A stretch of DNA of 64,000 bases, from NCBI RefSeq assembly GCF_036700095.1, contig NZ_CP144918.1, positions 807,001 through 871,000 of the forward strand, read 5' to 3'. The first letter of the stretch is position 1, and every line of letters starts with the position of its first letter. Below, in pieces: positions 24,720 through 24,973 of the stretch. Origin of the DNA: Pelagerythrobacter marensis (lineage in GTDB: Bacteria > Pseudomonadota > Alphaproteobacteria > Sphingomonadales > Sphingomonadaceae). Made by a program: the position numbers and the translations under genes. The notes under the pieces were generated by a model, which worked only from the letters and a program-made list of their open reading frames with translations, did not search any database and was not told where the DNA came from.

Positions 24720-24762
24720 GCACCCGTAGCTCAGCTGGATAGAGCGCTGCCCTCCGAAGGCT
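24720..24762 (+). pseudogene. 5' half of a tRNA-Arg(CCG), truncated
   Basis: The 5' acceptor strand, D arm and anticodon loop (CTCCGAA, anticodon CCG) are almost the same as in the intact tRNA at 24897. After the anticodon arm the sequence diverges and no T arm or 3' acceptor strand follows. This looks like the host tRNA cut by integration of an element. Confidence 0.75.
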
Positions 24763-24896
24763 GATGTCAAGGGGCTGGGCGACAAAGAGGAGACAAAAAG
24801 AGGTAGTGAGAACAAGGATTTGCGAGACCCTCGTTCTGATCTTTCAACTCGCGAAAAGTTCACGTAAGCACTGCGTAAGCATTTGCGACACGGTAA
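24763..24896. repeat. Probable attachment-site region with short repeats
   Basis: Between the two tRNA sequences lie GACAAAGAGG and GACAAAAAGAGG (24781, 24792), an imperfect hairpin near 24809-24837, and three copies of GTAAGCA (24864, 24875, 24893). Repeats beside a tRNA break suggest integrase arm-binding sites. No integrase gene is in the window, so this is inference. Confidence 0.4.
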
Positions 24897-24973
24897 GCAC
24901 CCATAGCTCAGCTGGATAGAGCGTCGCCCTCCGAAGGCGAAGGCCCCAGGTTCGAATCCTGGTGGGTGCGCCA
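24897..24973 (+). tRNA. tRNA-Arg(CCG)
   Basis: A complete 77-base cloverleaf: acceptor GCACCCA/TGGGTGC, D stem GCTC/GAGC, anticodon stem TCGCC/GGCGA with loop CTCCGAA (anticodon CCG), T stem CCAGG/CCTGG with loop TTCGAAT, discriminator G and encoded CCA. It differs from the truncated copy mainly in the acceptor and anticodon stem, so it is probably of foreign origin. Confidence 0.95.

Follow-up and report, generated by a model that had tools for sequence, protein, structure and literature searches.

An alphaproteobacterial defence island that parts its host's tRNA-Arg(CCG) gene and carries a complete copy of its own

In the stretch of DNA analysed here (the “window”: 64,000 nucleotides, G000:C1:807001–871000, from the two-contig, 2.91 Mb genome of Pelagerythrobacter marensis), a tRNA-Arg(CCG) gene breaks off midway and a complete tRNA-Arg(CCG) gene follows on the same strand (Table 1). 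Which of the two belongs to the host, and where is the rest of the broken one? The initial annotation had proposed that integration of an element destroys the host gene and that the element brings its own copy, and this is supported by the split halves, by the genes of relatives, and by the recurrence of the island. We consider it highly probable that the island splits the host's single tRNA-Arg(CCG) gene, and that the island's own complete copy replaces the lost function.

Table 1. Features of the island's left end and cargo, in window coordinates.
Feature	Position	Strand	Method
Host tRNA-Arg(CCG) 5' part, tRNA positions 1–32	24720..24751	+	sequence comparison
Integration core CTCCGAAGGC, island left end (anticodon loop and three stem bases)	24752..24761	+	
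Two GTAAGCA repeats just 5' of the replacement tRNA, predicted arm-type integrase sites	24864..24881	+	
Replacement tRNA-Arg(CCG), island-carried	24897..24973	+	ARAGORN, Rfam
Partial Trb conjugation set	35881..42245	-	
Gabija pair GajA and GajB	44294..47922	+	
HTH regulator and HipA-family gene	48042..49669	+	
DISARM-like group: methyltransferase, ORF without family, DrmA-like and DrmB-like genes	49666..60488	+	
SIR2-like gene and short Argonaute	61261..64000, second continues to G000:C1:871460	+	

The complete gene is the sole tRNA of the window, and ARAGORN and Rfam agree on it (70.7 bits). Upstream, positions 24720–24761 are the first 42 bases of the host gene, after which the sequence diverges. 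The gene is truncated, as first described, but the cut does not follow the anticodon arm: it falls inside the arm, behind the anticodon loop and the first three of the five bases of the stem's 3' strand, at 24761. The gap of 135 bases to the complete gene (24762–24896) had been given correctly. The missing 3' half, which the initial annotation had suggested seeking at the far end of the element, is indeed there, at G000:C1:873031–873075 (100% over tRNA positions 33–77), 41.3 kb from the 5' part and 2 kb past the end of the window. A 39-base pattern of the 3' half, allowing up to three mismatches, matched the genome in two places, the complete tRNA and the far end of the island (873033–873071, zero mismatches). 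All that the two island ends have in common is the 10-bp core, whose right-end copy, the same ten bases, lies outside the window at G000:C1:873031–873040. Adjoining this end, also outside the window, is a tyrosine integrase of 440 aa with arm-binding and catalytic domains (G000:C1:871530–872852, minus strand).

Joined, the two halves give a 77-nt gene that is 100% identical, base for base, to the intact genes of ten other genomes (59 searched, own included), which excludes a chance resemblance; the three same-genus genomes (G001, G002, G003) match it at 77/77. The reverse assignment, with the complete tRNA as the native gene and the 5' fragment as debris brought by the element, has in its favour that both are tRNA-Arg(CCG) on one strand and identical at 39 of the 42 bases of the 5' part. 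However, against the gene that relatives usually have, the complete copy reaches only 88% identity and the joined halves 100%, and the halves from the two ends co-vary across hosts. The same-genus genes equal to the joined halves refute this assignment, for which we see hardly any chance.

Of 28 islands that could be joined from both ends, 27 were kept (G437 was dropped, its 3' half coming from a second integrase locus), and their acceptor and anticodon stems form 319 of 324 Watson–Crick pairs, with perfect pairing in 24 islands. None of 20,000 permutations of the halves reached 319, the best giving 307; true halves average 11.8 of 12 stem pairs per joined gene and swapped halves 10.7. Because the true halves pair better than all the permutations, the two ends must once have been a single gene in each host.

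Comparison with an empty site, also proposed at the outset, succeeded for one side: same-genus genomes have the unsplit gene and also the left flank as far as the tRNA, but the right flank is not found beside tRNA-Arg(CCG) in those compared. A search of seven genomes gave a long right-flank match only in the own genome and in G003, there on a different contig from the tRNA, so that the empty site is read from the unsplit gene and the left flank.

Integration into a tRNA gene ordinarily proceeds otherwise, the element bringing the 3' part of the gene so that one end regains a whole target gene and the other keeps a displaced fragment. This pattern is common; we found a full gene plus 3' fragment in G006, G024, and G044, and even beside integrases of the present family in G452 and G455 (L186, L187, L188), with the intact tRNA on the left and the 3' half on the right. 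For the present island, in contrast, the sequences of both ends refute it, neither end having a complete gene and the shared core being 10 bp, and we give it next to no weight. An assembly artefact is unlikely, as this layout is repeated across many separate genomes.

Under the split-and-replace reading, the island's tyrosine integrase would recombine the 10-bp island core with the anticodon-loop sequence of the one tRNA-Arg(CCG) gene of the host, parting that gene into the 5' and 3' pieces seen at the two ends. The gene would stay in two parts because the shared 10-bp stretch is too short for rebuilding, and the complete tRNA-Arg(CCG), which is present 145 bp inside the left end, would take over the lost function. 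Precise excision would restore the host gene, while careless deletion of the island would cost the cell its tRNA-Arg(CCG).

How far the cell should depend on the replacement can be judged from the tRNA complement. Rfam places 43 tRNAs in the genome, 42 of them with an anticodon assigned by ARAGORN, and the arginine anticodons among these 42 are CCT, TCT, ACG, and CCG, one each. The count of tRNA-Arg(CCG) genes called for by the initial annotation is therefore one, at 24897–24973, with no second copy among the 42 typed tRNAs, a set in which tRNA-Ile(GAT) and tRNA-Ala(TGC) are not seen, so that a stretch with the rRNA operon may be missing. Given these four anticodons, the CGG codon needs the CCG tRNA under standard decoding rules. 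As no other CGG-reading tRNA was found in the genome, survival after integration should, by these rules, depend on the replacement tRNA. CGG makes up 25.8% of the arginine codons in thirteen island ORFs and 25.6% in eight large left-flank ORFs (unverified ORFs).

This similar codon use also bears on another explanation, that the tRNA is retained for some other reason (codon supply for the island, or escape from tRNA-cutting defences) and that compensation is a by-product. Such roles are proposed for phage tRNAs in PMC10865867, but the replacement tRNA shares its anticodon with the target gene and is found next to the core in all 43 left ends collected, and the island's use of CGG does not stand out. 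We think this explanation very unlikely, if slightly less so than the two set out above.

That the replacement tRNA belongs to the element follows from the joint recurrence of core, spacer, and tRNA in the islands of numerous other hosts. Its transcription may start at the host promoter, since it is co-oriented with the broken gene and closely follows the untouched host upstream region. Two observations count weakly against such read-through: a promoter scan gave no sigma-70-like site for the host tRNA gene or in the spacer, and the spacer has a terminator-like hairpin on the plus strand at 24822–24834 (the region has two sites of this kind, against 0.7 expected). From the sequence we infer that the replacement tRNA is expressed and that the host needs it. 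In 40 of 43 left ends, a pair of GTAAGCA-like repeats lies no more than 60 bases ahead of the tRNA, a plain count uncorrected for chance; the repeats are probably arm-type integrase sites.

The integrase led to the island's relatives. A scan of species genomes gave 52 loci, 48 of them (L079–L126) with 66–98% identity of the best segment and four further ones at 30% or less. By their titles, nearly all of the 48 are Alphaproteobacteria, with L093 from a bin labelled Phycisphaerae. The closest integrase is from Pelagivirga (98% identical), followed by Hyphomonas, Aquibium, and Cucumibacter (96–97%), and such near-identity shows that the module has crossed families. The right end, i.e., the core with at most one mismatch plus the tRNA-Arg(CCG) 3' half, was found in 41 of 45 tested loci (L120, L123, and L125 of the 48 were left out), always with the 3' half 177–180 bp from the integrase start; no right end was seen at L102, L111, L117, and L124, three of which had fewer than 250 bases to inspect. 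Phage records contained no integrase match at 60% identity or more, while plasmid records gave one match at 80–90% and five at 60–80%. A Bradyrhizobium plasmid has the same tRNA 3' half beside its integrase, with no CCG tRNA 5' part found in the record, and an Agrobacterium plasmid has no tRNA 3' half beside its integrase. Viral contigs contain two relatives at 94 and 96% identity and one distant one; loci L222 and L223 on such contigs have the same right end, and their viral origin is a candidate assignment only.

Forty-two of the 48 integrase loci were entered in a genome search, which covered 40 genomes, 38 with a match. Counting the own genome, the left-end signature was matched in 31 of 41 genomes and yielded 32 left ends, all with an intact tRNA-Arg(CCG) behind them; one match in G450, which reads as a plain tRNA gene, is excluded from these. 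The other ten genomes gave no left end (G421, G427, G429, G430, G440, G443, G448, G452, G454, G455), which counts against a strict rule for this integrase; the two examined more closely, G452 and G455, are the classical cases described above. A similar signature was met in 28 of 396 genomes of the host order, and in eleven of them (own included) it marks a broken part paired with a replacement, these order-level islands being counted by their left ends. In G263 another ORF interrupts the left end; in G340, G200, and G198 more than 10 bp are shared with the host gene; and the remaining matches are plain tRNA genes or chance-like (a second match in G139 is unplaced). The collection of 43 left ends is thus composed of the 32 from integrase genomes, another ten from the order sample, and L133, which has a different integrase. 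In all 43, an intact tRNA-Arg(CCG) runs in the direction of the broken gene, at 145–147 bp from the core in 37 and at 124–258 bp in six. A broken 5' part can be seen at 39 of these left ends; L171 is cut off at a contig end, and the flanks of L134, L156, and L164 lack the 5' part.

The replacement tRNAs have a further peculiarity, in the anticodon stem. Intact genes of the host order have a CTGCC/GGCAG stem in 52 of 54 readings (55 loci, two loci unread, four known island-bearing genomes left out), and so do 47 of 57 CCG genes, read by eye and irrespective of islands, in the family of G432, where the ten other-stem genes include the island copy of G432 itself. Among the split host genes, 23 of 27 have this stem. 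The replacements avoid it in 42 of 43 cases, the exception being L171: their stems are TCGCC/GGCGA (22), CCGCC/GGCGG (12), TCGGC/GCCGA (4), CTACC/GGTAG (2), CCACC/GGTGG (2), and CTGCC/GGCAG (1). The replacement tRNAs are not independent samples. On the integrase tree, with three labels assigned by hand, the stem types need 8 changes versus 11.2 in shuffles (none of 200 as low); TCGCC alone is clearly clustered (5 changes versus 9.5; 1 of 500), while CCGCC (173 of 500) and TCGGC (68 of 500) show no clear clustering.

One explanation, to which we would give somewhat less than an even chance, is that the replacement tRNA is shaped so that the island's own integrase recognizes it poorly. A target-like tRNA 145 bp from the island's own core would risk the island recombining with itself; the anticodon loop, as both decoding site and core, could not change, and the island would instead alter the flanking stem in compensated pairs. 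Against this stand six split genes with CCGCC, TCGCC, or TTGCC stems (G437, G438, G442, G412, G010, G447), which suggest that such sites are hit at least sometimes. Strict immunity of replacement-type tRNAs is rejected, as the joined split gene is itself of the replacement type in G010 (identity read by eye) and G438.

Between its ends, the island carries conjugation and defence genes. The Trb set comprises TrbI, a CagX-family (TrbG-like) and a VirB8-family (TrbF-like) protein, TrbL, TrbK-alt, TrbJ, and the C-terminal part of TrbE; no relaxase, coupling protein, TrbB, TrbC, or TrbD was found among the scanned ORFs, a subset of those in the island. A self-transmissible ICE, which would need a relaxase, a coupling protein, and the full type IV secretion set, is thus not supported for the present copy. 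No phage structural family was found among 29 Pfam-scanned ORFs (28 in the island, again a subset). Further cargo includes a TetR regulator, an MFS transporter, DUF899, AHSA1-type, class C beta-lactamase-family, dehydrogenase, and LysR genes; the beta-lactamase-family ORF (31165–32796) extends about 180 residues N-terminal of the family match. Two ORFs at 42549–44098 have no Pfam or NCBIfam family, and the DNA around 43264–43913 is common to L086, L088, and L114 and may be a recurring island part. Three defence systems, Gabija, DISARM-like, and SIR2/short Argonaute, are adjacent from 44294 to 64000 and onward. An ORF of 928 aa (51308–54094), which separates the methyltransferase from the DrmA-like gene, has no Pfam, PADLOC, or NCBIfam match.

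Sister islands carry varying defence systems. Seventeen large proteins encoded close to the integrase were selected from 16 of 27 sister loci; 13 of them, belonging to 12 loci, match known defence families (PADLOC, E under 1e-30), with no match at this threshold for those of L082, L086, L096, and L106. Ten single-contig islands span 35.3–72.3 kb from the left core to about the integrase. In the stretches compared, DNA likeness to sister islands lies mostly within the last 1.5 kb with the integrase; L083, L086, L088, L110, L112, and L114 share DNA elsewhere in the island.

Integrative elements linked to tRNA genes are known in several forms, among them the tycheposons of Prochlorococcus. The nearest parallel to the present island is the tRNA-dependent lysogeny of actinobacteriophages such as Fionnbharth, for which the tRNA requirement is experimentally proved (PMC10865867); the paper also names the Lactobacillus prophage Lj965 as a possible case elsewhere. 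The logic it describes is the same, down to the 10-bp core: our island has a tyrosine integrase and an att core of about 10 bp inside the host tRNA gene, the target is rebuilt at neither end, and the element's tRNA-Arg(CCG) is the only CCG gene found. Unlike those temperate phages, it is an alphaproteobacterial island with partial Trb genes, uses another tRNA, is known from sequence alone, and belongs to a group in which the replacement tRNA is fixed beside the integration core. Sinorhizobium meliloti prophages are likewise reported to inactivate a host tRNA gene in Alphaproteobacteria, a functionally equal gene being said to compensate (PMC11476347, PMC12429752); that case differs in concerning prophages, tRNA-Leu(UAG), and two reported strains. 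Classical tRNA-targeting islands (Islander database, PMC4383910) share the tyrosine integrase, the tRNA target, and the two gene parts at the ends, but restore the target with their own sequence, which the present island does not.

A search of open-licence literature found no conjugative or defence islands of the split-and-replace kind, which is weak evidence; apparently new are the tRNA-replacement principle in conjugation- and defence-type islands, and replacement tRNAs that avoid the target's usual anticodon-stem sequence. The principle would thereby extend from phages of Actinobacteria to non-phage defence islands across many Alphaproteobacteria. If the dependence holds, the host relies on a mobile element for an essential tRNA gene and cannot afford to lose the element carelessly. 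Island finders that look for a rebuilt tRNA accompanied by a displaced fragment could miss such islands, for which core, arm sites, and tRNA module together provide a simple tag for finding defence cargo, and the stem pattern gives a concrete, testable claim on how an island protects its own tRNA.

Two occupied sites are of additional interest. At the one in Hyphomonas pacifica (G417), the broken 5' part is followed by a further island, whose own replacement tRNA lies 188 bp from its core, and a contig of the present island type has an integrase 36% identical at the junction (L133, L134, L189); two islands would appear to be stacked at one tRNA gene, on contigs that are not linked. At the other, in G425, the sequence 3' of the replacement tRNA is similar to what follows the intact genes in classical cases, and this replacement tRNA may have been targeted in turn.
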